Below are positions 11,971 through 30,424 of a stretch of DNA of 64,000 bases, piece after piece. The translations under genes were made by a program, and so were the position numbers. The DNA is taken from positions 1 to 64,000 of the forward strand of contig JAPPII010000118.1 of NCBI GenBank assembly GCA_028820845.1. The letters run 5' to 3'. The notes under the pieces were generated by a model. It did not search any database and was not told the DNA's origin. It saw only the letters and a program-made list of their open reading frames with translations. Position 1 is the stretch's first letter, and the number at the start of each line of letters is the position of its first letter. The stretch comes from Candidatus Poribacteria bacterium (GTDB taxonomy: Bacteria > Poribacteria > WGA-4E > WGA-3G).

Positions 11971-12009
11971 TAATAAAGCCTTTATCTTTATTTTTTGGAG
12001 CGAAGCGAG

Positions 12010-14949: not shown

Positions 14950-15623
14950 AAAAGCTGTTGTGCTGCTTGTAGACGTTCAGGTGACCCGATATCTATCCAA
15001 CCGGCGTTGGCCTTAAGAACATAGAGGTTTTCTAATTTGGGAAGGACATCGTAGGAGAGAGAGAACACATCGTTCTCAGGAAATTTATGAACGATTGTAC
15101 TGTTGAAGAGGTAGACACCGGCATTGATGTATCCGCTTCGTAGCGCGGTGGGTTTTTCCAGAAATGCTGTAATTTGTCCTGCGTTTGAAGAGATAATTTC
15201 GCCGTAAGGGCGGGTATCATCTACCCAGACACCCAATAGTAACCCCTCCATGTTTTCTCGAAAGGTAGATACCATTTGCTTGAGGGAAAAATCACGCCAT
15301 AAGACATCTCCATTCAATACAAAGAACGGAGAATCGTGTATATGCTGCATTGCATTTTTGATGGCACCGCCGGTGTCGAGTTTTTTGTTTTCTTTGCAGT
15401 AACGAACAGGAATCCCTTCGTAAGCCTCGCCAATAGTGTCTCGGAGTACATCGTGGAGGTGTCCGGTAGCGAGGACGAGCTCCTGGACCCCAACCTCTTT
15501 TAGCAAATCGCACTGCCATTCAAGAATAGAACGGTTTTTGACTTTCAGGAGGAGTTTCGGGGTTCGTTTAGCGGTTGCTCCGAGACGTGTTGCACTCCCA
15601 CCACATAAAATAATTGCTTGCAT
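14946..15623 (-). CDS. Sugar-1-phosphate nucleotidylyltransferase
   Basis: 225 residues, GT-A-like nucleotidyltransferase fold (NTP_transferase family, HddC/RmlA type). The signature LCGGSATRLG with downstream TPKLLLKV forms the nucleotide-binding loop. LDTGGAIKNA and LNGDVLWRD supply the base- and metal-binding residues, and the later FLEKP and INAGVYLF are standard for mannose- or heptose-1-phosphate guanylyltransferases. The exact sugar cannot be assigned. It activates a sugar phosphate to an NDP-sugar for glycan assembly and so may feed the glycosyltransferases in the window. It is convergent with, and overlaps, the sigma-factor gene. Confidence 0.88.
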   Translation of the reverse strand: MQAIILCGGSATRLGATAKRTPKLLLKVKNRSILEWQCDLLKEVGVQELVLATGHLHDVLRDTIGEAYEGIPVRYCKENKKLDTGGAIKNAMQHIHDSPFFVLNGDVLWRDFSLKQMVSTFRENMEGLLLGVWVDDTRPYGEIISSNAGQITAFLEKPTALRSGYINAGVYLFNSTIVHKFPENDVFSLSYDVLPKLENLYVLKANAGWIDIGSPERLQAAQQLF

Positions 15624-15989: not shown

Positions 15990-17840
15990 TTACTGGCAGG
16001 GCGTGCCGCTTGCTCGTAACAGATGGTTTGCTCGAAATTGGTGGTTATCGACTAAAATGGTTGGAGAGGCTCTAATACCCAATTCAGCGGCACGCTTAAT
16101 GTTTTCTCGAAAGAGTTGTTCGGCTTCCGGGCTATCGAAAAGCGTCTGGATTTTCTCGACATCAATGTCAAGTTTCTGCGCGCACGCCTCCCAGCTTTGA
16201 TTCAGTTTTTTTCCACGGCATAGAATATAGTCCAGATACTTATCAGGGTATTCTTTCGCTATTAGCAACTGCCGAATATTCTCTGCGACTTCGGGGTATC
16301 CGTGTAAACTGGTGAAGGGTGTTATATCTTTCAGAGAAATGCTCTCCTTCTCTTGGGCAATAAATCGGAGTTTGAAGTCAATTGTGTCGCCAAATTTCTT
16401 GACAATCGGGATCAGTTTCTCCTCCGCCTGAACCCCGTAAGGGCAGTAACTCATGACAAACAGTTCCAACGTCGGTTTCCCCATGCGTGAGACACGAGAT
16501 GCTAACAATTCCTCAAGGTTCATCGGTTCTCGACTGTGGTCTACATCTTTGGTGTGCAGTGCGACAACCTCTGTGAATCCGGGAGAATGTTTTGTGTCAT
16601 GACATTTAAGACAAAGGGAAGTCTCAGCAGCGAGCCGAATATTCGTCTTTTTGGGATTACCGACGTGTTGTTTACCAGGACCGTGGCAAGTTTCACATTG
16701 GACTCCTTTGAACGCTGATTTTTCGTCGCCGATTTGGAACCCTGTTTGGTAACCGAAGCCAGTGGTATGGCATGAGACGCAATTTGGATCGAAGTAGCGC
16801 TCCTTTTTCAAAAGGGTTTCAAAGGCGAAAGCGTGCCGCGTAGCAGACCACTGAAGGTATTCTTGCTCATGGCAGTCCTGACACGCCGATGCCGACACAT
16901 ATCCGTTTTTTGTCTGCTGCTCCAGCAGTTGATCAGTGAAAAGTGGCTGATGTTCAGAAGATTCAGCGACTTCGCGGTAAAAGTCGGTTAACAACTGGCG
17001 CAGGGATTCATCTTCTGGAACATCGCCTGTCAGTGCAAGTTGCGTGGGGTGGTGTCGCGTGAGTTCACCTTCTGAATTCACCCAGAGTGCCAAAAATCCC
17101 AATGTTTTCCCTTCGGGGGTCGAACCTACGTAAAGTGTTCCGTCCGCTTGTTGTCCGAGTTCTGCTTCTTCAGGACTGATGACAACGTCAATCTCTCGTG
17201 GTTCTGCCGATGTCTGCTCTCCCAAGGCAATGAGAATATCAGCGTCTGGCAGTTCACCGTTGTTTGAAGCGTTTATAAGGGCAACAGTGGTCTTACCAAC
17301 AGTTTTTAGCACAAAGGGTCGCGTATGAATGTGGCCCTCGCCGAGAAATGGGAATGATGCAGCATCACGATGTTCACTGATATAAGTATCACCGTAAGCG
17401 AGGTCACTTTGACTCAATGCTACCGCGTCGTATCCCATCATAGACATCGCCTTGAGATTTATCTGACACCGTCGTGTGTCTATGGCCTCGGTGCCATCAA
17501 AAATATTCCCGGCATCAACCAAGAGCGCGGGGATTCCATATTTACGGATTTGCGAAACAAGGTGGGCGCGTCTCGGTAATCCACCTGACTGTTCCTGATA
17601 GCATCCACAAGGCTCCAAATGGCTTTTGGTGCCACCGGTGTACAGGATAATGACAGAAGGAAGCTCTTCGCCTTTAAGGATTGAAAGTGTAGTTTCAAGG
17701 GTTTCGCCTATCGGTTGACGCGCATGTTGCTTAATTTCTTGAATCTGTTGCTGTCTACGAGACTCCGCCCAATGCGTATACAGCGGCGGAACCCCTATGA
17801 CAAGCGTTAGTAGAATTAAAGTGACGATAGCAAGTTTCAT
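15990..17840 (-). CDS. Phosphoesterase-like / tetraheme cytochrome c / DsbA-like fusion
   Basis: 616 residues with three modules. After an N-terminal membrane anchor or signal (residues 3-20), residues 60-300 resemble the calcineurin-like 5'-nucleotidase family, with the LEPCGC-x5-GGLPRR motif of its cytochrome-linked branch; the usual DxH and NH metal ligands are not obvious. Four heme sites follow: CQDCH (320-324), CVSCH (354-358), CETCH (382-386), CLKCH (410-414), arranged as in cytochrome c554-like proteins. The C-terminus (from about 457) is thioredoxin-like, with SYCPYG (465-469) and a cis-proline region RASPTIL. CPYG has a single cysteine. A periplasmic redox enzyme is likely; the substrate is unknown. 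Confidence 0.85.
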   Translation of the reverse strand: MKLAIVTLILLTLVIGVPPLYTHWAESRRQQQIQEIKQHARQPIGETLETTLSILKGEELPSVIILYTGGTKSHLEPCGCYQEQSGGLPRRAHLVSQIRKYGIPALLVDAGNIFDGTEAIDTRRCQINLKAMSMMGYDAVALSQSDLAYGDTYISEHRDAASFPFLGEGHIHTRPFVLKTVGKTTVALINASNNGELPDADILIALGEQTSAEPREIDVVISPEEAELGQQADGTLYVGSTPEGKTLGFLALWVNSEGELTRHHPTQLALTGDVPEDESLRQLLTDFYREVAESSEHQPLFTDQLLEQQTKNGYVSASACQDCHEQEYLQWSATRHAFAFETLLKKERYFDPNCVSCHTTGFGYQTGFQIGDEKSAFKGVQCETCHGPGKQHVGNPKKTNIRLAAETSLCLKCHDTKHSPGFTEVVALHTKDVDHSREPMNLEELLASRVSRMGKPTLELFVMSYCPYGVQAEEKLIPIVKKFGDTIDFKLRFIAQEKESISLKDITPFTSLHGYPEVAENIRQLLIAKEYPDKYLDYILCRGKKLNQSWEACAQKLDIDVEKIQTLFDSPEAEQLFRENIKRAAELGIRASPTILVDNHQFRANHLLRASGTPCQ

Positions 17841-17842
17841 TA

Positions 17843-18991
17843 TTAAAAAAACCTATTTAAAAGGGAGATTATCCCGAGGTGAAAGGGGCCCTTACAAAGC
17901 ACCGTCAACAATCCCCCGAATACAATGACGGGTGCGAAACGAATGGCAGGCTGGATCCGAATTCTGTTGTCGAAGTGTGCAAAGGCATTCTGTTTGACTA
18001 AATTTTGTAATTTACGAATTGTTGCCGCGGAGAGTCCGACTGGGTCGGTCGTTATCAACTCAGTTCCTTGGCGTTCCTTTTTGTCTACTTGCTTATCATA
18101 ATGAACACTCCCGTCGGCCTGCTCCATTTTGAAGATGTATTCGCTGAGAATCATCCCGACCTGGAGGTTTGACACCTCGACTATCCGATCAAAAGCGATA
18201 CTTGCTAACTGAAGCACGAACTGTTTCGCTACTACAAAGATAAGCAAATAAAAGATGAAGAAAAAGGCGAGTCCACCGAGCAGCAGCCCGATGGAGGGTG
18301 CGTTTTTGAACATTAGCCAACCGCTGCCAAACAGTACAATGACGACAGATGTCGGTGTTTTCAAAAAGGGACCTAATACTTTCTGTACGCCGCCAAAAAT
18401 AGCCAACGCCAAGATAAGCTGCATCACCCGATCTAACTGCCATTCTATAATTTCAAAAAGATAGGTAAGTCCGGCACCAATAAGAATAAACTGGAGTAGT
18501 CCGAACAATTTCTCCAACACCGCATCTCGATTGAGAGATGCCTTGATGAGTTGGATGATCATCGTACCAGTTCCACGTACCCGGATTAACTGGACGATGA
18601 GATAGCCTATCGCTATGATCGTGTAAGGGATGATGATATTGAGTGCCAATGCTATAGGCGGGAATATCAACGTCTCTTGGATATGTCCAAACCACCATGG
18701 CGGTAGTATTAAACAGAGTCCCCAAAAGAACTTAGAGTCACCCGGCGAGAAGATACCAAACGTATAGAACGCGATGGCAATTGCACCACTCACCGCGAAT
18801 GTGATTGCAATATTCACGGGTGTGGTGAGCCCAAGGAACCAACCCATTAGTTGCCCGAGAGTGCCAGCATAAATGAGACACATCGAACAAAGATTGGGTA
18901 TCTTATGGGTTTTTATATCCGTATAGCAAGCATAACCACAAAAAGCAAATGCTATAGAGAGTAAGATGATTTCGTACGTAAATGTGTTCAC
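17843..18991 (-). CDS. Prepilin-peptidase-like (A24) polytopic membrane protein
   Basis: 382 residues, about eight hydrophobic segments. The N-terminal CYTDIKTHKIPN and the later SPGDSKFFWG contain the two aspartates of A24 aspartic peptidases (D-x3-HKIPN and GD-x-K). These enzymes cut type IV prepilin-like leaders at the inner membrane face; archaeal preflagellin peptidases have the same core. The protein is longer than a minimal A24 enzyme because of a C-terminal extension with further membrane segments and a soluble loop. No pilin genes are in view. The stop is 2 nt before the start of the cytochrome fusion gene, so the two are co-transcribed. Confidence 0.75.
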   Translation of the reverse strand: MNTFTYEIILLSIAFAFCGYACYTDIKTHKIPNLCSMCLIYAGTLGQLMGWFLGLTTPVNIAITFAVSGAIAIAFYTFGIFSPGDSKFFWGLCLILPPWWFGHIQETLIFPPIALALNIIIPYTIIAIGYLIVQLIRVRGTGTMIIQLIKASLNRDAVLEKLFGLLQFILIGAGLTYLFEIIEWQLDRVMQLILALAIFGGVQKVLGPFLKTPTSVVIVLFGSGWLMFKNAPSIGLLLGGLAFFFIFYLLIFVVAKQFVLQLASIAFDRIVEVSNLQVGMILSEYIFKMEQADGSVHYDKQVDKKERQGTELITTDPVGLSAATIRKLQNLVKQNAFAHFDNRIRIQPAIRFAPVIVFGGLLTVLCKGPFHLGIISLLNRFF

Positions 18992-19337: not shown

Positions 19338-19604
19338 TTACTCACATCCCATACCCTCTACGCGACAGGTCCAGAATCCGTCGCCCCAATCAACCCACAC
19401 CCAATCAAGACACTTCCATACACACTGCTGGTCACCATCACAGTCAGCGTTGTTAACACATGCGTCTGCGTCAGGTGTGACAACGAACGCTTGTGCAAGC
19501 ATCAGCCCACCTGCGGCGACACCGAGGGCCAGAGGCGTTTTCACACCGACACGACCTTCTTCGGAATCGAGGAAGTCTCGGATTTTCGACTTGAGATTTT
19601 TCAT
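19338..19604 (-). CDS. Leader peptide family member A, Cys-rich C-terminus
   Basis: 88 residues. The first 39 residues (starting MKNLKSKIRDFLDSEEGRVG) are essentially identical in three genes here (19338, 25273, 26714), while the C-terminal part varies. A hydrophobic stretch PLALGVAAGGLMLAQAFVV ends in DADA, a possible cleavage site. The remainder has six cysteines in the pattern C5C5C3C14C6C with several Trp. An invariant leader with a variable core is the arrangement of RiPP precursors; a plain secreted disulfide peptide is the alternative. GGAGAACC lies before the ATG. Immediately upstream is a decayed end of a GT4 gene (19601-19828). Confidence 0.8.
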   Translation of the reverse strand: MKNLKSKIRDFLDSEEGRVGVKTPLALGVAAGGLMLAQAFVVTPDADACVNNADCDGDQQCVWKCLDWVWVDWGDGFWTCRVEGMGCE

Positions 19605-19828
19605 TGAGGTTCTCCTTTCTTTATACCGGGAAATCTCTTGTGCCCGGCGGGATTTGCTCGACCTTGAGAGGCGATCCCATTTTCAGATCGAAATGGTTCG
19701 CTCTGAAAATGCCTGAAAACAAATTCTACTTCAGCAGATATATGATGTTCGGACAATACCTCTGCTAAAGTGTTTTCAAGGTATTCAAATCGGTTTGTAT
19801 ATCTTAGATTCACATAGGTGGTGTTCAC
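19601..19828 (-). pseudogene. C-terminal remnant of a GT4 glycosyltransferase gene
   Basis: The frame encodes FEYLENTLAEVLSEHH and SAEVEFVFRHFQ, which aligns with the last 50 residues of the intact GT4 at 27059-28705 (FDSLENALAVILSKHH, PAEVASVFKHFQ). The nucleotide sequence is also related. No upstream catalytic part remains; a TolB-like gene abuts instead. The remnant sits in the same position relative to peptide A as the intact gene does relative to peptide C, showing that a GT-peptide unit was duplicated and then trimmed. Confidence 0.75.
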
Positions 19829-19837
19829 AGAAGTACG

Positions 19838-20785
19838 TTATTTCCTCTTGAGTTTCCCCCAAAGTGTTGTCAGAAGATTCGCTTGCGGCTGAACAGGCAA
19901 AGTTTTCGGATCAAACCAATCGCCCGCATAATTTCGACCTTCATGTGTGAGTTGTTTTGATGTACGACTCCACAAACGGGTTTTGAAAATGTGGGATTTT
20001 CCATGACCTCTATGTTCATAAAGAAGTTCGTCACCGTGGGGAGACCAAACCGGACCATCAGCCCAAAAGGCCCGAGCTGGTTTTACAATTCGCTTGAGTT
20101 GACTGCCATCAAGGTTCATTATGTAGACGGTCAGTAAGTGAAATATTTCAGGGTTGAACCAAGAGAAAGCGAGTTTTGAACTATCTGGTGCCCATGAGAG
20201 CGAACTAATCAATGGTCGTCGAGGATTTTCGAGAAACATTCTTCGTGTGCGTGTCCGGAGGTCAAAAATCCCGATTCCAAACTTTCCTCCTTCACCTGGT
20301 GGATCCAAAATGAATGCTATCCATTCTTCATTGGGCGACCAACGGGGATATATCCCTTTTGTAACTGATGCAACATTCTCGCCATCCCGGGTAGCAGTAT
20401 AAACAGTTCCGTTTTGTGAATAAGCGATTCTTTCTCCATCGGGAGCCCAAGATGGGTTGGACCTTCGTGCGAGATCCTTAAAGATTTTCTGCACATTTGT
20501 TCCATCCGCCTCCATAATGTACAGATCCCACGCGCCATCTCGGTTAGACGTAAAAAGGATGTGTGTGCCTGTAGGCGACCAGATAGGTCCAGCATCGCCT
20601 CCAGGGTGGCGGGTGAGGTTGACAGGCTCACTTCCGTCAGGATTCATTACATAAATGTCAAAATCTCCTTTGCGGTTTGATGAAAAGACGATTTTGGCGG
20701 TCTTTGGAACTTGGGCATAAACTAAAGAAATGCCAAAAAACAAAAATATGGAAACAAGAATAGCCAACATACATGTACGTTTCAT
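19838..20785 (-). CDS. Exported TolB-like (PD40) beta-propeller, subfamily A
   Basis: About 315 residues from the ATG at 20785 (MKRT start as in its paralogues; in-frame ATGs at 20791 and 20812 are possible). A signal peptide (MLAILVSIFLFFGISLVYA) precedes PD40/WD40-like repeats of the form SNRKGDFDIYVMNPDGSE-x-NLT and PIWSPTG, as in TolB. No Pal, TolQ or TolR gene is nearby, so this is not the Tol system. The C-terminus VQPQANLLTTLWGKLKRK is shared with all intact paralogues in this cluster. Probably a periplasmic or surface propeller for binding partners. Confidence 0.82.
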   Translation of the reverse strand: MKRTCMLAILVSIFLFFGISLVYAQVPKTAKIVFSSNRKGDFDIYVMNPDGSEPVNLTRHPGGDAGPIWSPTGTHILFTSNRDGAWDLYIMEADGTNVQKIFKDLARRSNPSWAPDGERIAYSQNGTVYTATRDGENVASVTKGIYPRWSPNEEWIAFILDPPGEGGKFGIGIFDLRTRTRRMFLENPRRPLISSLSWAPDSSKLAFSWFNPEIFHLLTVYIMNLDGSQLKRIVKPARAFWADGPVWSPHGDELLYEHRGHGKSHIFKTRLWSRTSKQLTHEGRNYAGDWFDPKTLPVQPQANLLTTLWGKLKRK

Positions 20786-20855
20786 TACCATTTTAGGATC
20801 GAACCTCCACATTTATTTAACTTTTAACTCAAGAAAATAGATTCATAAAAGCCTG

Positions 20856-21598
20856 TTACTTCTGTTTGAGTTTACCCCAGAGCGTTGTTAGCAACGCGGC
20901 ATTGGGCTGCACAGGAAAGGCCTTCCGTTCAGGGACCCAAGCAGGACCCACATGCATTGACAGTTCATCTGTTAATTGACGAAGCTCTCCGCTGACTACA
21001 TTCATGACATAGATAGCATTTGTCCATCGGCATCCATCACGTAGAGGAATTGTTCTCGGATACCGTCCTTATTACGCCAAAAAGAATTAAAAACGATCGA
21101 CTGACTATCGGGGGACCAGGCTGGACTTGTATTTTTTCCCGGGAGCCTGGTCAACCGTTGTAGGTTCTTACCATGCACATCCATCTTGTAGATTTCAAAC
21201 GCACCTGAACGATCTGAGCAAAAAGCAATCCACTGTCCATCTGGTGACCACGCAGCCATTACGTCACTTCCAGGATCTTTTGTCAATCTATGATTTTTTT
21301 TTGTTTCAACATTCATGACATAAATATCAGAATGCCCATTCGGATCCGAACTATAAGCGAAAGAGTATCCGTTAGGAGACCATGTCGCTATGATGTCTGA
21401 TGTCCTTCTTCGACTGGTAAGGTTATGGAGATTTTCACCATTTATATCAATAGTGTAAATGTCCCAGTTTCCATCTTGATTAGAGCTAAAGGAAATATAC
21501 GGAACTTCAGCTGGATAAGCCAAGGCACTCAGCAGAAGTAAAAACAGGCTTACCACAAAGACCGTTCTTAGATATAAGATCCACCTTTGATCATTCAT
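20856..21598 (-). pseudogene. Decayed TolB-like propeller, subfamily B
   Basis: The open frame (21002-21598, 198 residues) has a signal peptide and PD40 repeats like 21749-22720 but stops after YVMDADGQ. Downstream, another frame resumes with NAIYVMN and the conserved ELRQLTDELSM, ending LLTTLWGKLKQK at 20856. Compared with the intact paralogue, about 70 residues between YVMDADG and AIYVMN are missing and the frame is shifted. This looks like recombination between two similar repeat blocks (YVMDADG and YVMN). The gene is probably inactive. Confidence 0.8.
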
Positions 21599-21748
21599 TT
21601 ATTTTCCTCTACTAAAAATTTACTACCCACAGCGGAATGATTTAAAAAACATAGGTTTCCAAAAAACGTTTGAGGCAAGCGTGACAGTAAAAACTGCCAC
21701 TCAGTATGTCTATCTCAGATTTACAAGGACAGTATGCATCGAAGTATA

Positions 21749-22720
21749 TTACTTCTGCTTTAGTCTGCCCCATAGGGTCGTCAGCAACGTAGCACTTGGC
21801 TGAACAGATAAAGCACTTCGCACCGGCACCCAAGCGGGGGACCAATTCATCGAGAGTTCGTCTGTTAATTGACGAAGTTCTCCGCTGGTTGTATTCATGA
21901 TGTAGATACCACTTGTTGCATTCTGTCGAGGTTCCCGTGCCTCAAACGTAATCCACTGGCCGTCAGGTGACCATGCCGGTCCCATCACCCATTTAGGTTC
22001 ATTTGTCAACTGACGAAGATCCTCCCCACTCGGTCTTACGCCGAAGAGGTCAAAGGTCCCCTCTCCGTCCTCACCGTCTCGCGTCGTTGAAAAGAGGATC
22101 CTGTTTCCGTCTGGAGACCACGATGCTCCACTTGCTGCAGCTTTTATGAGCTGTCTTATATTTTCCCCATCGGCACTCATCACATAGAGGAAATATTGGC
22201 GGAAACCTTTCTCATTACGCCACAGAGAACGGAAAACGATCCATTGACTGTCAGGCGACCACGCCGGGCTTGTGTTACTTCCTGGGAGATTTGTCAACCG
22301 TTGCAGGTTCTTACCACGGATATCCATCTTGTAGATTTCATTGGCACCCGAACGGTTTGAGCAAAAAGCAATCCATTGTCCATCAGGCGACCACGCAGCC
22401 AGGAAGTCAATTCCAGGATCCTTTGTTAACCGGCGGCTTTCTTCCGTTTCGATATCTATGACAAAAATATCGGGATTTCCATTCGGATCGGAAGTATAGG
22501 CGAGAAATTGACCATCAGGGGACCAAGTTGCGTAAGCATCATTTGTCCGGTGCTGGTCAGTGAGATTGCGAAGATTTTCGCCATTCGTATCAATGATATA
22601 GACATCAGAGTTTCCTTCTCGGTTAGAAGAAAAGGAAATGTATCGAACGTCTTCAGCGTATCCGCAGACGTTTATTAGGATCAAGAGACTGTTTAGCAGA
22701 AATACTCCTTTAATAGACAT
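21749..22720 (-). CDS. Exported TolB-like (PD40) beta-propeller, subfamily B
   Basis: 323 residues. A signal peptide (up to about CGYA) is followed by at least five PD40 repeats: SNREGNSDVYIIDTNGENLR, WSPDGQFLAY, SNRSGANEIYKMD, and so on. The C-terminal segment ITFEAREPRQNATSGIYIMN, ELRQLTDELSMNWSPAWVP and LLTTLWGRLKQK is almost identical to 24155-25123. It belongs to the B branch, distinguished from the A branch by the start of the first repeat (YISFSSN against KIVFSSN). Confidence 0.83.
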   Translation of the reverse strand: MSIKGVFLLNSLLILINVCGYAEDVRYISFSSNREGNSDVYIIDTNGENLRNLTDQHRTNDAYATWSPDGQFLAYTSDPNGNPDIFVIDIETEESRRLTKDPGIDFLAAWSPDGQWIAFCSNRSGANEIYKMDIRGKNLQRLTNLPGSNTSPAWSPDSQWIVFRSLWRNEKGFRQYFLYVMSADGENIRQLIKAAASGASWSPDGNRILFSTTRDGEDGEGTFDLFGVRPSGEDLRQLTNEPKWVMGPAWSPDGQWITFEAREPRQNATSGIYIMNTTSGELRQLTDELSMNWSPAWVPVRSALSVQPSATLLTTLWGRLKQK

Positions 22721-22808
22721 AAGATGGGTTCTCCTTAATTTTTTGCTTGAAGTTTACCAGTGCAAAGGGATATTAGCAAAAGGTGAATTTCAATAGTGTT
22801 AAGGAATC

Positions 22809-23735
22809 TTATTTCTCTTTTAATTTACTCCACTGCGTTGTTAACAATTTTGGGTTGGGTTGAACTGGAAGAGTCGCTGGATCAAACCAATTAGGCTCAA
22901 TATTGATTGTCCCAGCTCCACCTGTGAGTTGTTTAGAGATGCGACTTTCCAAATTGAAAGTGAAAATTTGGCCTCGCTCTACATAAAGCAATTCATCGCC
23001 CCGTGGTCCCCAAGCGGGAAACGTTCCAGCAGTCAATTTTTCGGCTTTATTACTACCATCAAGGACGTAAATACCCTTTTTCAACCAACTAAATGCTATT
23101 TTTTTTCCATCCGGAGCCCAATCCGCATGAAATAATGAGGCAGGTTCATCAGGTTCAAAAAGCGTAGTTTCTGCTTTAGTATTGATGTTTACAACACGAA
23201 GAAAAGCGGTACCACGAGCGTGTTCAAACCTAAAAGTAAAGATAATCTCTGAACCGTCGGGAGACCAATCTGGAAAACCTGCCAGAGGTCCCGCGGATGC
23301 GATATGCTCTTCTCGCTGTTCCTCTATATGAGCAATATAGATTGCTCTTTCATCTCCATCCCAACGATAATAAGCCAGCATTTTTCCATCTGGGGACCAG
23401 GTTGGGAATTCTCTATAGACCAAGTCCTTAAATAACTTTTGGACGTTTTTTCCATCAGCATCCATAATGTAAATATCCCGCAGGCCGTGCCGATCAGAGT
23501 GAAAAGCAATGCCTTCACCTGTCTGGGACCAGACAGGTGCTCCATCCCGTGCGCTGTGCTGCGTCAAGTTCTTTTGTTCGCTTCCGTTCACATTCATAAT
23601 ATAAATCTCGCTATTACCATCGCGATTAGATGTAAACACGATTTTTGCGGTTTTAGGTGTTTGGGCAAGAGCTGAACAAACACCCTGACCTAACAATATG
23701 GAAATAAGGATAACCCACAAATGTGTGCGTTTCAT
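22809..23735 (-). CDS. Exported TolB-like (PD40) beta-propeller, subfamily A
   Basis: About 308 residues from the ATG at 23735, preceded by AGGAG; the frame extends to 23810 but then overlaps a truncated paralogue. Signal peptide LWVILISILLGQGVCSALA, then PD40 repeats (SNRDGNSEIYIMNVNGSEQ, WSQTGEGIAFHSDRHGLRD, WSPDGKMLAYYRWDGDERA). It ends NPKLLTTQWSKLKEK. It is the most diverged member of the A branch in its middle repeats, which may mark a different partner. Confidence 0.82.
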   Translation of the reverse strand: MKRTHLWVILISILLGQGVCSALAQTPKTAKIVFTSNRDGNSEIYIMNVNGSEQKNLTQHSARDGAPVWSQTGEGIAFHSDRHGLRDIYIMDADGKNVQKLFKDLVYREFPTWSPDGKMLAYYRWDGDERAIYIAHIEEQREEHIASAGPLAGFPDWSPDGSEIIFTFRFEHARGTAFLRVVNINTKAETTLFEPDEPASLFHADWAPDGKKIAFSWLKKGIYVLDGSNKAEKLTAGTFPAWGPRGDELLYVERGQIFTFNLESRISKQLTGGAGTINIEPNWFDPATLPVQPNPKLLTTQWSKLKEK

Positions 23736-23748
23736 GATTACATTTCTC

Positions 23749-23997
23749 CTAAATCTTAGATTGAAAAAGAATTTCTTCCCCTGTAGGTGACCATATTGGA
23801 GAAAAATCACCTGAAGGGTGCCGGGTTAAATTTATTTGTTGACTTCCATCGGGGTTCATCAAATAGATATCATCATTGCCATCACGATTAGATTGAAAAG
23901 CGATTTTTGCGGTTTTAGGTGTTTGAGCAAAAGCTAAATAAACACTTTGACCTAACAAGATAGCAGCAAGAATAATCCACAAACATGTGCGTTTCAT
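23749..23997 (-). pseudogene. Truncated TolB-like gene (signal peptide and first repeats only)
   Basis: 82 residues: an intact signal peptide and SNRDGNDDIYLMNPDGSQQ, then FSPIWSPTGEEILFQSKI and stop. This is nearly identical to the start of 25687-26622 and ends abruptly where that gene continues FQSNRDGKF. The next propeller starts only 13 nt beyond the stop. It is probably a recombination remnant, although the short product could still be exported. Confidence 0.78.
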
Positions 23998-24154
23998 GAG
24001 CCTATTTCTCCTAAACCTTTATTTTCTATAAGTTCATCAACAAACCTATATCGAAACGCTGAATATATGGTAGATTTTAGAATTACTTGGGTGCTGCGCA
24101 CCAGGGAGACTACAAACCCCACTACCAAGTAAGCGATATATTCATAAAGATTTG

Positions 24155-25123
24155 TTATTTCTGTTTGAGTTTACCCCAGAGCGTTGTTAGCATTGAGGCA
24201 TTTGGCTGAACAGGAAAAGTGCTTCGCATCGGTACCCAAGCGGGGGACCAATTCATCGACAATTCTTCTGTTAATTGACGAAGTTCTCCGTCAGCTGCGT
24301 TCATAACATAGATAGCACTTGTTTTGTTCTGCCGAGGCTCTCGTGCTTCAAATGTAATCCATTGACCATCGGAAGACCATTGTGGAGCCAATTCCCATTT
24401 AGGTTCCTGCGTCAACTGACGGACCCCTTGATCATTCAGATTTATAACAAAGAGGTCAAAGGTATCCTCTCCATCCTCATCGTTTCGCGTTGTTGAAAAG
24501 AGAATCTGATTTCCATCGGGAGACCAAGAGGGACCGCCAGAGGCAACTTTGATGAACTTTCTAAGATTTCTCCCATCAGCACGCATCACATAGAGGAAAC
24601 TTTCCCCGTGCCCTTTCTCATTACGTTGGGAAGAAGTAAAGATAATTTGTTGACTGTCAGGTGACCACGCCGGGCTTGTGTTATTTCCTGGAAGCCTTGT
24701 CAATCGCTGCAGGTTCTTACCGCTGGCATTGATTCTGTAGATTTCAAACGAACCTGAACGATTTGAGCAGAAGGCAATCCATCGTCCATCTGGAGACCAG
24801 GCGGCACACGCGTCAATTCCAGGATCTTGTATCAACCGGCGGTTTTTCCCTGTTTCGATATCCATTACATAAATCTCAAAGTTTCCATTTTGATCGGAGC
24901 TATACGTTAAAAAACGACCGTCTGGGGACCAGGTCGCGTCAGCCTCATTCGTCCGTCGATCAGTAATGTTACGAAGATTTTTGCCGTTTGTATCAATAGT
25001 ATAGATGTCGGCGTTTCCTGTTCGGTTAGAAGAAAAAGAGATAGACCGCACGTTTTCAGCGGCGTATGTCCAAACGCTTGTTATGATCAAGAAACTGATT
25101 GTCCAATACACTATCTTAAGCAT
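24155..25123 (-). CDS. Exported TolB-like (PD40) beta-propeller, subfamily B
   Basis: 322 residues. Signal peptide (IVYWTISFLIITSVWTYAAE), then PD40 repeats SNRTGNADIYTIDTNGKNLR, WSPDGRFLTYSSDQNGNFE, SNRSGSFEIYRINASGKNL. The last third and the C-terminus (SMLTTLWGKLKQK) match 21749-22720 closely. Its 5' flank carries the hairpin at 25227-25253, related to one before the decayed B copy (about 21680-21705), so the leader was duplicated with the gene. It directly follows peptide B on the minus strand. Confidence 0.83.
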   Translation of the reverse strand: MLKIVYWTISFLIITSVWTYAAENVRSISFSSNRTGNADIYTIDTNGKNLRNITDRRTNEADATWSPDGRFLTYSSDQNGNFEIYVMDIETGKNRRLIQDPGIDACAAWSPDGRWIAFCSNRSGSFEIYRINASGKNLQRLTRLPGNNTSPAWSPDSQQIIFTSSQRNEKGHGESFLYVMRADGRNLRKFIKVASGGPSWSPDGNQILFSTTRNDEDGEDTFDLFVINLNDQGVRQLTQEPKWELAPQWSSDGQWITFEAREPRQNKTSAIYVMNAADGELRQLTEELSMNWSPAWVPMRSTFPVQPNASMLTTLWGKLKQK

Positions 25124-25226
25124 AATATAGATTCTCCTTCATTCTTCTTGATTTCTTCCTTAGCGGTTTAACACCCATAGAGGAATATTGTTAGGAAAAA
25201 ACAAATTTCAAAAATGCCCTTGAGGT

Positions 25227-25253
25227 AGGTGTGACGGTAAAACCGCTACACCT
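25227..25253 (-). promoter_or_regulatory. Hairpin between leader peptide B and a TolB-like gene
   Basis: AGGTGTGACGGT and ACCGCTACACCT form a stem with two mismatches and a 3-nt loop. A homologous structure (GTGACAGT...ACTGCCAC, about 21680-21700) precedes the decayed B-type propeller gene. It could limit read-through from peptide B or protect the transcript. No T-run follows on the minus strand. Confidence 0.45.
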
Positions 25254-25272
25254 GAGTTAGCAATGAACTCCT

Positions 25273-25545
25273 TCAGATTTCAAGAAGATTCATTAACAAT
25301 TTATTGACATTCTTTCCAGCAGTGTTCACCCCATGGTTCGGGACGCATCTTTCAACACACTCCTGAGCCCCTGGGCAGTCGGCATTTACAGTGCATCCTT
25401 GTGCTGCAGCATCTGGGATAACCACCATGGCTTGTGCAAGCATCAACCCACCCGCAGCAACACCGAGTGCTAATGGCGTTTTCACACCGACACGACCTTC
25501 TTCGGAATCAAGGAAGTCTCGGATTTTCGACTTGAGATTTTTCAT
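25273..25545 (-). CDS. Leader peptide family member B, probably frameshifted
   Basis: 90 residues. The leader is the same as in peptides A and C; the variable part begins GCTVNADCPGAQECVERC, matching the C5C5C3C pattern. It then continues with an unrelated, Cys-free tail (VPNHGVNTAGKNVNKLLMN). In another frame the same DNA reads PEPWGEHCWKECQ and stop (TAA at 25301-25303), restoring a Trp and two cysteines as in A and C. A one- or two-base indel near 25338-25344 is the simplest explanation. The gene starts at ATG 25545, with GGAGAAACC upstream. Confidence 0.72.
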   Translation of the reverse strand: MKNLKSKIRDFLDSEEGRVGVKTPLALGVAAGGLMLAQAMVVIPDAAAQGCTVNADCPGAQECVERCVPNHGVNTAGKNVNKLLMNLLEI

Positions 25546-25609
25546 TCAGGTTTCTCCTTTCTTTATACCGGGTACCTCACACCCAGCGGAATTGACCCAA
25601 CCAGAACAG

Positions 25610-25668
25610 TTGAGCCTATTTCCAGAGCAAGAAAATTCACTTGTGCTGGAAACGCTTGAAAACTGTTT
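25610..25668 (-). pseudogene. Small remnant of a GT4 3' end
   Basis: About 60 bases that align with the 3' end of the GT4 gene at 27059-28705: shared blocks ATTTCCAG, GCTGGAAA and GCTTGAAAAC, encoding VFKRFQ on the minus strand. It is shorter than the remnant near peptide A and occupies the equivalent place between a TolB-like gene end and peptide B. It supports repeated duplication of a GT4-peptide-propeller unit. Confidence 0.6.
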
Positions 25669-25686
25669 CTATCTGAAAAAAGCAGA

Positions 25687-26622
25687 CTACTGCCGCTTCA
25701 GTTCTCCCCATCGTGTTGTCAGAAGATTTGCCTGCGGCTGAACCTGTAGACCAACAGGGTCAAACCAATGAGCATCAGAATTGAAGTTCCCCTCGTGGGT
25801 GAGTTGTTCTCCTCTACGATCCATCAAACCGATTTTGAAGATTTGAGACTGTCCATTTGCCCTTTGCACATAAAGGAGTTTATCGCCTCTGGGGGACCAG
25901 GTGACCGCTTCTACCCAAAAGGGTGCCTTAGGTTTTAGAACTCTTTTAACCATTGTTCCATTACGATTCAATGTGTAAATAGTCTGCTGCTGCCAGAAAG
26001 CTCTGTCAATTCCAGAGAAAGCAAGGTGATGACCATCCGGTGCCCATGAAACATCTTCTAACCTGCCCCCTAATTGGATTCTAAAGATCGGTTCTTGTTC
26101 TCCAGTTTCGGTGTTAAGTAACCGGATTTCGACAGGCGGCATAGGAATAAATGCTATCCATTCTCCAATCGGGGACCAGGCAGGTGCCCGACCCTGCACT
26201 ACTTTTTTAATATTTTTCCCATCTCGTGTCGAGATGTAGATGGATCCGTTACTTGCGTAAGCAATCTTTTTTCCGTCCGGCGACCAACTCGGACTGTTTC
26301 TGTTTCTCCTTTCTCGAAAGATTGCCCTTACATTTTTTCCATTGGCAGCCATAAGATATAAGTCAAATTTGCCATCACGATTAGATTGAAAAAGAATTTC
26401 TTCTCCTGTAGGCGACCATATTGGAGAAAAATCACCTGAAGGGTGCCGGGTTAAATTTATTTGTTGACTTCCATCGGGATTCATTAAATAGATTTCATCA
26501 TTGCCATCACGATTAGATTGAAAAGTGATTTTTGAGGTTTTTGGGACTCTGGCAGAAAGCGTACAAATTTGTTGACATAATAACACAAAGATCAAGGCGC
26601 ATAATCCATATATCCGTTTCAT
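25687..26622 (-). CDS. Exported TolB-like (PD40) beta-propeller, subfamily A
   Basis: About 311 residues from the ATG at 26622 (AAAGGA upstream); the frame runs 16 codons further without a better start. Signal peptide LCALIFVLLCQQICTLSA, then PD40 repeats (SNRDGNDEIYLMNPDGSQQ, SPTGEEILFQSNRDGKFDL, WSPDGKKIAYASNGSIYIS). It ends VQPQANLLTTRWGELKRQ. Its first 80 residues served as donor or sister of the truncated gene 23749-23997. It lies between peptides B and C on the minus strand. Confidence 0.83.
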   Translation of the reverse strand: MKRIYGLCALIFVLLCQQICTLSARVPKTSKITFQSNRDGNDEIYLMNPDGSQQINLTRHPSGDFSPIWSPTGEEILFQSNRDGKFDLYLMAANGKNVRAIFRERRNRNSPSWSPDGKKIAYASNGSIYISTRDGKNIKKVVQGRAPAWSPIGEWIAFIPMPPVEIRLLNTETGEQEPIFRIQLGGRLEDVSWAPDGHHLAFSGIDRAFWQQQTIYTLNRNGTMVKRVLKPKAPFWVEAVTWSPRGDKLLYVQRANGQSQIFKIGLMDRRGEQLTHEGNFNSDAHWFDPVGLQVQPQANLLTTRWGELKRQ

Positions 26623-26649
26623 GAGTGTATATCCTTTAGCTAACGGGGG

Positions 26650-26681
26650 TTTGCATAGGTTTGTAAACAAACCTATGCAAA
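26650..26681 (-). terminator. Perfect 15-bp hairpin behind leader peptide C
   Basis: Arms TTTGCATAGGTTTGT and ACAAACCTATGCAAA with a 2-nt loop. It lies 32 bases beyond the stop of peptide C and 28 bases before the start of the next TolB-like gene. No T-run, so it may act as an attenuator or 3' stabiliser that lets the peptide mRNA accumulate above the downstream propeller genes. Confidence 0.6.
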
Positions 26682-26713
26682 GCAGTTAAAGTTATGGGAT
26701 AGGGTCTACATCA

Positions 26714-26983
26714 TTAAACTTCCACACATCCCATGCCCCAAACGCGGCAAGTCCAATACTCTTCCTCTGCAACCCAGACCCAGTCAAGACATTTTTCCAT
26801 GCAAGTTTCATTTCCCGCACAGTCGTCTGCCTGGGTGCATGCATCAGCTTGAGGTGTGACAACAAATGCCTGTGCAAGCATCAGCCCACCCGCAGCAACA
26901 CCGAGTGCTAACGGCGTTTTCACACCGACACGACCTTCTTCGGAATCAAGGAAGTCTCGGATTTTCGACTTGAGATTTTTCAT
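26714..26983 (-). CDS. Leader peptide family member C, Cys-rich C-terminus
   Basis: 89 residues. Leader as in A and B, then CTQADDCAGNETCMEKC and LDWVWVAEEEYWTCRVWGM, ending GCVEV: six cysteines spaced C5C5C3C13C6C, close to peptide A. Acidic and tryptophan-rich between the fourth and fifth Cys. The start at 26983 has GGAGAAACC upstream, and the 5' flank holds a CCGGG/CCCGG hairpin found before all three peptides. It follows the intact GT4 gene (stop at 27059) by about 75 nt, so GT4-b, peptide C and the propellers are probably one operon. Confidence 0.8.
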   Translation of the reverse strand: MKNLKSKIRDFLDSEEGRVGVKTPLALGVAAGGLMLAQAFVVTPQADACTQADDCAGNETCMEKCLDWVWVAEEEYWTCRVWGMGCVEV

Positions 26984-27058
26984 TCAGGTTTCTCCTTTCT
27001 TTATACCGGGTATCTCAGCCCCGGCGGGATTAACTCAACTCAGTTTAGACTTGAAAAT

Positions 27059-28705
27059 CTAAACCTTACAGTTAAGTCCATTTCCAGCGAGAAATGAGTC
27101 GCGCTGGAAATGCTTGAAAACAGACGCCACTTCAGCAGGTGTATGATGTTTAGATAATATCACTGCTAAAGCGTTTTCAAGACTGTCAAAGCGTTTTGTT
27201 TCTTGATTATATGCTCTTGGATAAGTCCTGCCGGTTCGCGGATCGTAATACTGACAAAAAATTGGTGGAAGCAGGTTTGGCATTGTGGGTTGAGGGCGCG
27301 TCTTGGCACGCGCAGCACTCTGTTTAAATAATTGAACAATTTCCATTGCAGTACGATCCCATGTGTACTTTGCCGCAAAACTTCTTGCTATCTGTTCATA
27401 CTTCCCCCGCCGCTTTGTGTCTTTTAGGAGTTGATTTATCGTTTTTGACAACTGCCGCATCGGAATCTCCAAGTCGTGTTCCTTGCTAAAGGAGCATTGA
27501 ACAAGAATCCCCGCACCTTCAATTTCAGGCGGGAGTCCATATTGTGAGATAACAACTGCCGGGGTGCCATAAGCCATTGCCTCCAGAACCAACGACGGAG
27601 AAGTCCCCGAGATGGCTGGGAAACAGACGATATCCAACGCTTGGAAAAATATCGGTAACACTGATCGCGTATCTTCATCGTCCGCGCTGAAAAGCACGAC
27701 ATTTTTGGGTTTGTTGTTATAATGTTCCGCCAAAATCGAATCATAGACGAAAAAGGCAATATGTGGATTGGATGTCGCCAATTCTGAAATTACCCTCACT
27801 GCCATATTAGGTTCAAACCCAGAGATAATGCCGACTACGGGTTGTTGTGAAAATAATGGGTTTTCTGTAAGCGAGGCAGTATATTGCTTTGCCAATGCCT
27901 TTCCAATAGGTTCAACGACATTGATGCCTTCTGAAATTGTATACATTCCGGCAGGATTTACCCCGAATTCCGAAAACCAATCGGTGAGCCACGATGCTTT
28001 TGGTAAAATTAGATCCGTAGGTTTCTGAGCGGTAGAGTGTTCTAAGGTTTTGTCAAGTACCAGATCCCGTAGCCTCCGATCGCTCTCCGCGCAGTAAAGG
28101 ATAGGGACTTCTTGTGGATAACACAAAGTATCATACCATAGAACTTGACTCAGGAGGAGAATGCCATCGTAACCCTTTCCTACATACCACGGTAAGGGAA
28201 AACTTCTTTCATTTTCTTCTGGTTTCTTTATCGCTCGAACAGACACAAAATCAAGGATGTCAGGTGTTTCATCACCGGTCACATCAATAGTTTCCAATTC
28301 AGTATATTTCGAAAGTGCTTTCAGTAGGTGATACCGATTCTCGTTTGTGATAGTATCAAGTGTGTTTTTTTCTAAGGCGAATTGGAATGGAACAAGGAGC
28401 TTAAGTTTTGTCTCTGGATTTCGAGTATGCTCTTCAATTACTCTACTAATTGGGCTTAACAGACACCTACGCTGAGAAAGACTTTCTAACCGTTCGATCC
28501 CTTCAAAAATCTGCTCTGTTTTAAATTGGGATTTCAAACCCTCAACGGTTGCATAAATTGTTTCCGCGAGGTCCCGATTAAGAAGTTCCCACTCTACATC
28601 GTTTATTTTAACAATGACATCGAATTCCATATCAGCGGCGTACTTTTTTCCACCGTGCTCAAATTTGTGGTGTTTATGTACTCGGTATTTTGTTTGAACT
28701 TTCAT
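27059..28705 (-). CDS. GT4-like glycosyltransferase with peptide-maturase-type N-terminal domain (GT4-b)
   Basis: 548 residues. Residues 1-90 (VHKHHKFEHGGKKYAADMEF, then VKINDVEWELL and a helical part ending in SQRRCLL) resemble the N-terminal PqqD-like/leader-binding region of SPASM radical SAM peptide maturases (HxFxxxGKxYxxD). The rest is a GT-B fold of the GT4 type (ISGFEPNMAVRVISEL, DIVCFPAISGTSPSLVLEAM, YGTPAVV). The first Glu of the EX7E motif is replaced (GTSPSLVLE), so catalysis may be altered. A C-terminal extension with a conserved helical tail is duplicated as remnants near peptides A and B. It lies directly before peptide C, suggesting it acts on the peptide family. Confidence 0.75.
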   Translation of the reverse strand: MKVQTKYRVHKHHKFEHGGKKYAADMEFDVIVKINDVEWELLNRDLAETIYATVEGLKSQFKTEQIFEGIERLESLSQRRCLLSPISRVIEEHTRNPETKLKLLVPFQFALEKNTLDTITNENRYHLLKALSKYTELETIDVTGDETPDILDFVSVRAIKKPEENERSFPLPWYVGKGYDGILLLSQVLWYDTLCYPQEVPILYCAESDRRLRDLVLDKTLEHSTAQKPTDLILPKASWLTDWFSEFGVNPAGMYTISEGINVVEPIGKALAKQYTASLTENPLFSQQPVVGIISGFEPNMAVRVISELATSNPHIAFFVYDSILAEHYNNKPKNVVLFSADDEDTRSVLPIFFQALDIVCFPAISGTSPSLVLEAMAYGTPAVVISQYGLPPEIEGAGILVQCSFSKEHDLEIPMRQLSKTINQLLKDTKRRGKYEQIARSFAAKYTWDRTAMEIVQLFKQSAARAKTRPQPTMPNLLPPIFCQYYDPRTGRTYPRAYNQETKRFDSLENALAVILSKHHTPAEVASVFKHFQRDSFLAGNGLNCKV

Positions 28706-28714
28706 TATGAAACC

Positions 28715-30424
28715 TCATGCTGTAGCTTGAATGAAACCCTGACACCTTGCCAGTATAGTTTTGGCGGCATTCTCATCTTCCATAAGTTCCGTGAGAACCG
28801 CTTCCACTTCCCTGATAGTATGCGTTTTGAGGAGAGTGAGGACCAACCCATCTTCAACCTGTTGGTTGAAGACGTTGAGTGGATTCACCGGTTTCTCGTA
28901 TTGCGTGTTCAGATTCAAAAGGACAGACTTTTGCTCAATTTGTTTCCGATAGGCATTCCAATAGGGGGAGAAAAATGGGAGAAGGCGATTTTGAGAGACG
29001 AGTTTCTTTTTTCGATTCAGTTCCTCAAATAGTGAGAGGATCCGCTGCGCATTCTTTTCCCAAGTGAACGTTTGCGCACGAGACAACGCCTTTTTCGCAT
29101 AGGCATCCCGTAGTGAATTATCATTTAGCAATAGATTTATCTCTTGGGAGAAGTCTAACGGCGAGGCGTAACTAGTGATGGTAGCAATGTCTTGTTCAAA
29201 ATGCACGGCTGGAACGATTAAACCAGCGTCTCCGACAACAGAAGGAACACCATCGAAATCGGAGATAACGGGAGGCACCCCACATGCCATCGCCTCAAGG
29301 ACTGTCAATCCAAAAGTCTCTTCACCAGACACAGATGGGAAGCAATAAACATCAAAAGCATTGTAAATTAGTGGTAGTTTCTTACGCGGATGGAATCCAA
29401 CATAGACGAGATTGTCTGGCATTGTTCTGTGTGCATATCTGCCTTGATTCCAACCCGCCTGCAAAAAGAGTATGTGTGGATTGAGTTCCGCCAACTTTAG
29501 ATAGATAGAGGCTCCCTTTTCAGCTTGAAGGCGGGAGAGATAACCCACTGTGGGCATCGTTTTAATCCGCTCATCTCCGACGATTTCTGCAAGTTCATGC
29601 TTCGCTTGTTGTTTATCCATTGGGCAGAATAAGTTTAGATCCACACCGTTTGGTACGGTGTTGAAAACACTTTTATCCCAGACGAAGCGAGAATAGAAGT
29701 CCCCAACAGAATCCGAAGGAGTAGTAAAGGCATCGCAATCTCGCAACGCTGCATAATGAAGGAGTACAGAACGAATACCCGTGCCGCCATGCCCACGCAC
29801 AGCATGGATTTGCATCAGGATTGGCGGAAGCTCAGGACATCGGAAGAGAGAGAGAACCGATTCCTCATTCAGTTCCCAATGAAGTGTAAGAATACCGCTG
29901 TATTGCTCTGCCACCTTTTCAGGGGCGCGCAATATGTCGTGCAGATTCAAATCAATTTCGTAGAGATTCTCACTGAGTCTTCTGTTTTGTGTGCCAGCAA
30001 AGTAGAGAATAGCACACTCCTTCAGTGCCTGAATAGCATACGCGAGCGCGATGTTAGTTCCGGCACTGGTATTTTCTATGTCTGAAAGGGTGTCAGCGTT
30101 GAATCCTGGCAGGACCAATAATAGATGTGGTGAGTTGTCTTCTCTGGAAAAGGGGGTTGTAGGATTTTCTCCACGATTAAACAGCAAACCTTGTCGATCA
30201 TGTTCAGTTAATGCCTCGAATGCTTGTGCAATCTCAGCCGTATCATAGATAGTTTTCAGGGCATCTGTGATCGCCTCTGTAGGCTGTGTCTCCGCGAGTT
30301 TCAGGATATGAGCAACGACAGCAGAGATTTCGACAAGCTGTGCCTTATCAAGATCAGCGGCGTAAAGTTTACCCTCTTCTTCAAAGATATGGAGTTGATG
30401 TAGAGATTTCGGAAAATTAAGCAC
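28715..30424 (-). CDS. GT4 glycosyltransferase with peptide-maturase-type N-terminal domain (GT4-a)
   Basis: 569 residues, 9 nt upstream of GT4-b. The N-terminus LHIFEEEGKLYAADLDKAQL, then VEISAVVAHILKLAET, follows the same HxFxxxGKxYxxD pattern as GT4-b. The GT-B catalytic part is complete, with VGYLSRLQAEKGASIYLKL and EETFGLTVLEAMACG, an intact EX7E motif. As in GT4-b, a C-terminal helical extension (NQQVEDGLVLTLLKTHTIRE, then VEAVLTEL) follows. Two paired glycosyltransferases with a leader-binding-like domain beside a leader-peptide family suggest glycosylation of those peptides; this is inference. Confidence 0.78.
   Translation of the reverse strand: MLNFPKSLHQLHIFEEEGKLYAADLDKAQLVEISAVVAHILKLAETQPTEAITDALKTIYDTAEIAQAFEALTEHDRQGLLFNRGENPTTPFSREDNSPHLLLVLPGFNADTLSDIENTSAGTNIALAYAIQALKECAILYFAGTQNRRLSENLYEIDLNLHDILRAPEKVAEQYSGILTLHWELNEESVLSLFRCPELPPILMQIHAVRGHGGTGIRSVLLHYAALRDCDAFTTPSDSVGDFYSRFVWDKSVFNTVPNGVDLNLFCPMDKQQAKHELAEIVGDERIKTMPTVGYLSRLQAEKGASIYLKLAELNPHILFLQAGWNQGRYAHRTMPDNLVYVGFHPRKKLPLIYNAFDVYCFPSVSGEETFGLTVLEAMACGVPPVISDFDGVPSVVGDAGLIVPAVHFEQDIATITSYASPLDFSQEINLLLNDNSLRDAYAKKALSRAQTFTWEKNAQRILSLFEELNRKKKLVSQNRLLPFFSPYWNAYRKQIEQKSVLLNLNTQYEKPVNPLNVFNQQVEDGLVLTLLKTHTIREVEAVLTELMEDENAAKTILARCQGFIQATA

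Follow-up and report, generated by a model that had tools for sequence, protein, structure and literature searches.

We analyzed a 64,000-nucleotide window of a Candidatus Poribacteria bacterium (contig JAPPII010000118.1, positions 1 to 64,000; here C118), which belongs to a 5.7-Mb draft genome in 125 contigs with an estimated contamination of 3%. Poribacteria are known chiefly from marine sponges. The minus strand of the window carries a cassette that encodes a family of short precursor peptides, each composed of a constant leader and a variable core, beside two family 4 glycosyltransferases (GT4s), called GT-A and GT-B. This pairing of an encoded precursor family with predicted modifying enzymes is one hallmark of ribosomally synthesized and post-translationally modified peptides (RiPPs). 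Both glycosyltransferases begin with a RiPP recognition element (RRE) domain. It is likely that the cassette specifies an RRE-guided, glycosyltransferase-type RiPP pathway that proceeds from leader docking to core glycosylation, export, and trimming. Its product is thus probably a new class of peptides decorated with sugar. Candidatus Poribacteria have several paralogous cassettes of this kind, with many copies per genome, and the locus is one of them. An earlier note on this DNA had suggested that the glycosyltransferases dock on the leader and glycosylate the cores; its observations are confirmed, and overall its reading is partly supported.

Sequence and fold together establish that GT-A and GT-B start with a true RRE (PqqD-like leader-binding) domain. 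The two proteins, located upstream of the precursors on the same strand as the earlier note had said, carry HxFxxxGKxYxxD N-termini, which that note had likened to the leader-binding region of radical S-adenosylmethionine (SAM) maturases. Specifically, when a profile of 40 glycosyltransferase N-termini was compared with Protein Data Bank (PDB) sequences, the only convincing match was to CteB (5wgg/5why, residues 4-83, E=1.2e-13), the remaining matches being short, repetitive, or weak and unrelated. A profile restricted to GT-Bs matched CteB residues 5-91 (E=1.9e-10). The N-termini also match the ScfB-like (36/40) and SCIFF (29/40) radical SAM maturase models and the starts of the QhpD and CcpM maturase models, and a glycosyltransferase-only profile detects the start of a CcpM-like radical SAM maturase encoded on a different contig of the same genome. 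A search of this genome with the PqqD Pfam model PF05402 did not list the glycosyltransferases, except for a weak 13.7-bit match in the copy on contig C31. With respect to fold, the AlphaFold2 model of GT-A residues 1-90 has a predicted local distance difference test (pLDDT) score of 92.9 and displays the strand-strand-strand-helix-helix-helix order of RREs. The top nine Foldseek matches to this model are CteB, TbiB1, and lasso B1 structures, most of them solved with the leader bound. VIA-align returned Z-scores of 10.9 (5wgg) and 10.5 for CteB, 7.9 for lasso B1, and 7.1 for PqqD; a Z below 8 is by itself not decisive. In CteB, the leader extends the RRE sheet (PMC6231123). By homology, the Poribacterial leaders would dock on the RREs of GT-A and GT-B.

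A second peptide-modification locus exists in the same genome (G000 contig C79:18385-27312; L048:2385-11312). Its genes encode a CcpM-like radical SAM maturase that has an RRE of its own, a QhpE-like subtilase that includes a TIGR04066 part, and two GT4s in which no RRE was detected.

The three precursors in the window, all minus-strand open reading frames, are identical over residues 1-39, a segment previously described as nearly invariant. Within codons 1-39, pairs of precursors differ at 4, 9, and 9 codons, all synonymously (0 nonsynonymous), whereas identity in the upstream DNA is 33-56% and the cores have diverged. Thus, the constant part is under purifying selection. Chance and recent duplication were ruled out as its source, as synonymous differences have accumulated without nonsynonymous ones. 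The C-terminal parts, earlier called Cys- and Trp-rich, are Cys-rich in all three precursors and Trp-rich in two. In precursor 2, the Cys pattern is lost after the fourth Cys, and this core may be degenerate.

The leader family extends well beyond these three members: 15 homologues, on four contigs, are present in the window's genome, and 83 distinct precursors from this genome and its relatives were aligned (consensus numbering is window-precursor numbering + 1; percentages are by weight). E16 and G18 are invariant, followed by F12 (94%), S15 (88%), and V20 (85%). The resulting motif, F-[LI]-x-S-E-x-G-x-V, precedes a hydrophobic stretch. After residue 48, Cys makes up 14.6% of the sequence, with 4 or 6 Cys most common. 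Five precursors have Cys-free cores and keep the leader motif, so the family is defined by its leader, not by a disulfide scaffold. At L028:846-1336 and L219:18384-18898, the motif is joined to short Cys-free cores, several with -IVAI-like tails, and lectin-like partners (3-keto-disaccharide hydrolase family) replace the TolB propellers in those cassettes. AxA signal-peptidase sites follow the hydrophobic stretch in 79/83 precursors versus 54 in shuffles. The polar motif, the hydrophobic stretch, and the AxA sites make it likely that the peptides leave by Sec and are processed by signal peptidase I, and they give the leader the look of a RiPP leader merged with an export signal.

The first ~27 residues of 10 of the 15 leaders tested weakly resemble HxsA3, the precursor of the radical SAM His-Xaa-Ser RiPP system. 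The best match (E=0.002) is below cut-off, with 13 bits versus a model cut-off of 65, and, unlike HxsA3, the cassette precursors have no His-Xaa-Ser repeats.

The leaders and GT-A occur together. Across 78 genomes, leaders are present in 30/30 genomes with GT-A and in 3/48 without it (p=1.6e-18); within the genus, the corresponding counts are 25/25 and 2/12 (p=1.9e-7). The genomes are related, so these p-values overstate independence; presence is nevertheless patchy inside the genus. When the three leader-only genomes (G002, G028, G043) were searched again at a loose threshold, only partial glycosyltransferase matches lacking the N-terminal domain were recovered. The earlier note had named two findings that would count against its proposal, namely glycosyltransferase N-termini unlike PqqD/RRE folds and leader homologues that are widespread without such glycosyltransferases. 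The RRE homology and fold of the N-termini rule out the first, and the 78-genome comparison rules out the second.

The association also holds at the level of the locus. Leaders usually lie within 10 kb of a glycosyltransferase. In the one-contig genome G010, 15 of the 17 listed leaders are at most 10.3 kb from one, and the other two share a locus where a truncated GT-A RRE remnant persists. Genome G029 has an A24 peptidase-family gene without leader or glycosyltransferase, yet a GT-A remnant is present at the locus. Decayed cassettes in these two genomes (L215:15709-15906 and L216:6550-7110) contain GT-A RRE fragments, the rest of the gene having been lost. The same cassettes recur in relatives whose assemblies comprise one to three contigs (G005, G010, G018). 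GT-A occurs in 33/85 genomes of the phylum. Full-length GT-A relatives in the named collection (two catalytic-site patterns) come, among the matches listed, only from Candidatus Poribacteria, and no convincing case of an RRE domain or leader was found at 76 loci surrounding non-Poribacterial GT4 matches.

The catalytic parts of both glycosyltransferases match known GT4 structures, 3c48 among them, and enzymes of the glycogen-synthase-like kind. All 29 GT-As retain the EX7E glutamates, R298, and K303, and GT-A is apparently an active enzyme. Among 24 GT-Bs, R298 is replaced by Gly in 22 and the first Glu of EX7E by Pro or Ser in 23, and Lys is absent from the five commonest residues at position 303. 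Because the donor-binding Arg and Lys and the first Glu are lost in most or all GT-Bs, GT-B is probably a non-catalytic, leader-binding pseudoenzyme partner of GT-A. This reading follows the analogy of the accessory Sec glycosyltransferases GtfA and GtfB, likewise a GT4 pair, one catalytic and one degenerate, that modifies serine-rich adhesins in the cytoplasm; the cassette pair, too, presumably acts there on an export-bound protein. Here, however, the substrate-binding domain is an RRE, the substrates are peptides of ~90 residues, and the GtfA model TIGR02918 gives 16.7 bits versus a cut-off of 574.6. Glycocins of the sublancin type also combine small Cys-rich peptides with a dedicated glycosyltransferase, but both cassette enzymes are GT4-type with an RRE rather than GT2-type (SunS-like). 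No GG cleavage motif precedes the core in the precursor alignment, and no ATP-binding cassette (ABC) exporter-peptidase was noticed by eye in the cassettes, for which no profile search was made.

From the RRE side, the nearest relatives are CteB/SCIFF and CcpM, maturases of ranthipeptides and sactipeptides. They possess a homologous RRE and act with small Cys-rich precursors that have a constant leader. In the cassettes, by contrast, the RRE is on a GT4, and no radical SAM enzyme was seen. RRE-Finder had already catalogued fusions of an RRE with a glycosyltransferase in 2020 (PMC7470986 Fig. S7), and they were listed again in 2025, in the latter case with the GT2-type domain PF00535 rather than a GT4 (PMC12710340). 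Neither the accessible part of PMC7470986 nor PMC12710340 gives a characterized system, precursor family, or partner genes for these fusions. We found no description of the Poribacterial system in open papers, a search that mostly does not cover subscription journals. By the tests made, the cassette encodes neither a glycocin, nor a GtfA/GtfB pair, nor a Flp pilin; it fits an RRE-guided RiPP pathway in which glycosyltransferases are the only evident modifying enzymes.

We propose the following sequence of events. The constant leader would bind the RREs at the N-termini of GT-A and GT-B. GT-A, supported by GT-B, would take a sugar from a nucleotide sugar and attach it, in the cytoplasm, to the docked peptide. 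Next, the leader's hydrophobic stretch would serve as a Sec export signal, and the leader would be removed by signal peptidase I and/or by a dedicated A24 peptidase after the invariant E-x-G. Disulfides would form outside the cell, where the mature, mostly disulfide-rich peptide would act with the secreted beta-propeller usually encoded directly downstream. Core glycosylation by GT-A/GT-B is our best inference; gene order points to the peptide-propeller interaction.

Partner genes are consistent with several of these steps. While the earlier note had reported no peptidase in the window, the cassette includes an A24 membrane protein with both catalytic Asp motifs (D..K.xN and GD), which are invariant in 12 homologues. 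The A24 protein tracks GT-A at the genome level (28/30 genomes with GT-A versus 2/48 without). An additional A24 protein elsewhere in the genome, on contig C10, matches the family model better, so the cassette A24 enzymes are extra copies. Our literature search found no paper describing cleavage of a RiPP leader by such a peptidase of the prepilin type. The TolB-type propellers remarked on earlier are indeed found among the precursor and glycosyltransferase genes. Across 64 leaders, the next gene downstream encodes a TolB-type propeller in 34 cases, a Kelch propeller in 8, and a member of a third propeller-like group in 6. Also found in several cassettes are genes for a methyltransferase, a phosphohexomutase, and a sugar nucleotidyltransferase, the last of which the earlier note had missed in the window; the sugar-nucleotide genes fit a local supply of nucleotide sugar. 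A UshA-like/cytochrome c554/DsbA-like fusion recurs in other cassettes, and its DsbA-like domain could aid disulfide formation outside the cell. The window copy belongs to the UshA-like (seleno)protein family and has PCGC at the site where PCGU would be expected from the family name.

The A24 peptidase also raises the alternative that the leader functions chiefly as a prepilin-like (class III) signal. In that case, A24 would cut after the invariant Gly, the peptides would be anchored or assembled through their hydrophobic segment into pilus-like or membrane-bound forms, and the glycosyltransferases would decorate pilin-like subunits. A dedicated A24 peptidase in nearly every cassette genome suits this idea, as do the weak match of the C79 A24 homologue to the archaeal A24 C-terminal domain and the polar E-x-G ahead of a hydrophobic stretch, which recalls Flp prepilins cleaved by the A24 enzyme TadV (PMC3244431). 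Nonetheless, it appears unlikely. The precursors have no Pfam match to Flp pilins and lack the Flp E/D+5 and Y+6, position +5 being K or R in 96% by weight, and their C-terminus is Cys-rich and RRE-glycosyltransferases accompany them. The AxA sites after the hydrophobic stretch argue in the same direction, and no pilus ATPase or platform gene was noticed beside the cassettes, although no systematic search was made.

Other observations weigh against the proposed pathway. Ser and Thr are both absent from two cores, which rules out Ser/Thr as the universal acceptor, and Asn is absent from 22, leaving no obvious acceptor residue. Cassettes with Cys-free cores exist. The full-length GT-A model is poor (pLDDT 49, 5 sequences). 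Covariation, considered as proof of docking, proved non-discriminating: leader and glycosyltransferase types co-vary, but no more strongly with the RRE than with the catalytic domain, and the RRE-leader partial correlation given the catalytic domain is 0.15, no better than that of the hydrophobic region. Finally, the leader could be RRE-bound without the peptide being the sugar acceptor. The RREs would then hold the leader while the sugar is attached to something other than the peptide, either the beta-propeller or a glycan built by the glycosyltransferases, with the peptide as regulator or carrier. The lack of a universal acceptor residue in the cores, the propellers that accompany most leaders, and the fact that some RiPP enzymes can have vestigial RREs (PMC7470986) are compatible with this arrangement. 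We judge it quite unlikely, since the propellers lack the leader and look Sec-exported, and since known RRE-fused enzymes act on the leader-bearing peptide (general knowledge; PMC12710340).

Least probable is that these are plain secreted disulfide peptides with a long signal sequence and unrelated glycosyltransferase neighbors: the hydrophobic stretch, the AxA sites, and weak matches of some precursors to Cys-rich repeat models of secreted proteins (TIGR04201, NF041328) are set against near-perfect co-occurrence with RRE-glycosyltransferases, the RRE fold, Cys-free cores behind the same motif, and conservation that is strongest in the polar part before the hydrophobic stretch, a part dispensable for signal peptides. 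The earlier note had entertained this alternative, and its signal-like features are real, but the leader also looks like a RiPP leader.

Table 1. Features of the cassette in the window
Feature	Position	Strand	Evidence
GT-A: RRE, intact GT4 catalytic domain (EX7E, R298, K303), conserved C-terminal segment	28715-30424	-	Pfam Glycos_transf_1 E=4e-22; catalytic residues 29/29
RRE (PqqD-like) domain of GT-A, residues 1-90	30155-30424	-	profile versus CteB; AlphaFold2; VIA-align; Foldseek
GT-B: RRE, degenerate GT4 domain; probable non-catalytic partner	27059-28705	-	Pfam Glycos_transf_1 E=1.6e-9; lost catalytic residues
RRE domain of GT-B	28430-28699	-	member of profile matching CteB; GT-B-only profile versus CteB
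Precursor 1: 39-residue constant leader, 6-Cys core	26714-26983	-	
Precursor 2: same leader, core may be degenerate	25273-25545	-	
Precursor 3: same leader, 6-Cys core	19338-19604	-	
GT-B 3'-end remnant before precursor 3 (duplication scar)	19601-19828	-	GT-B profile 36 bits
Secreted TolB-type beta-propeller beside precursor 1	25687-26670	-	Pfam PD40
Secreted TolB-type beta-propeller beside precursor 2	24155-25123	-	Pfam PD40 E=1e-49
TolB-type propeller	22809-23810	-	profile 452 bits
TolB-type propeller	21749-22720	-	profile 468 bits
TolB-type propeller	19838-20812	-	profile 350 bits
A24 (prepilin/type IV leader peptidase family) membrane protein, candidate leader peptidase	17843-18991	-	PF01478 26.9 bits, cut-off 26.5
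UshA-like/cytochrome c554/DsbA-like fusion	15990-17840	-	NF041198 (below its cut-off), PF13435, PF01323
Sugar-1-phosphate nucleotidyltransferase, possible nucleoside diphosphate sugar supply	14946-15623	-	PF00483 E=3e-31; mannose-1-P guanylyltransferase model 128 bits, below cut-off

On the minus strand, the order is GT-A, GT-B, precursor 1, a TolB-type propeller, precursor 2, further propellers, the GT-B 3' remnant, and precursor 3, continuing with the A24 protein, the fusion protein, and the sugar nucleotidyltransferase (Table 1). GT-B 3' ends also precede extra precursors at L025:15786-15971 and L208:5518-5781; thus, precursors seem to spread via duplications whose start lies within GT-B. 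Inside the cassette, some TolB-type propeller genes are broken or truncated (window 20856-21598 and 23749-23997), which suggests turnover through duplication and decay. Window 11995-14949 encodes an extracytoplasmic function (ECF) sigma factor fused to a BNR-type propeller (984 aa). Large sigma-factor proteins resembling it adjoin cassettes in C27, C38, G057, and G005, and such proteins may regulate the adjoining cassettes.

Most RiPP pathways have RRE domains in common. RRE-glycosyltransferase fusions have been orphans since 2020, and the present case adds a precursor family of more than 80 members, a catalytic/pseudoenzyme pair, a peptidase, and genome-scale co-occurrence, which together make leader-guided peptide glycosylation directly testable. 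We tentatively entertain, as a possibility somewhat short of an even chance, a new RiPP class, so far confined to Poribacteria, in which an RRE-GT4 and an RRE-pseudo-GT4 would glycosylate tagged mini-proteins, a dedicated prepilin-type peptidase would release them, and a cognate beta-propeller would receive them, the many paralogous cassettes per genome yielding varied peptide/propeller pairs. Leader-guided glycosyltransferases would serve as tools to glycosylate chosen peptides. As for the organisms themselves, the arrays of paired peptides and propellers may point to an unrecognized surface or secretion biology of Poribacteria.

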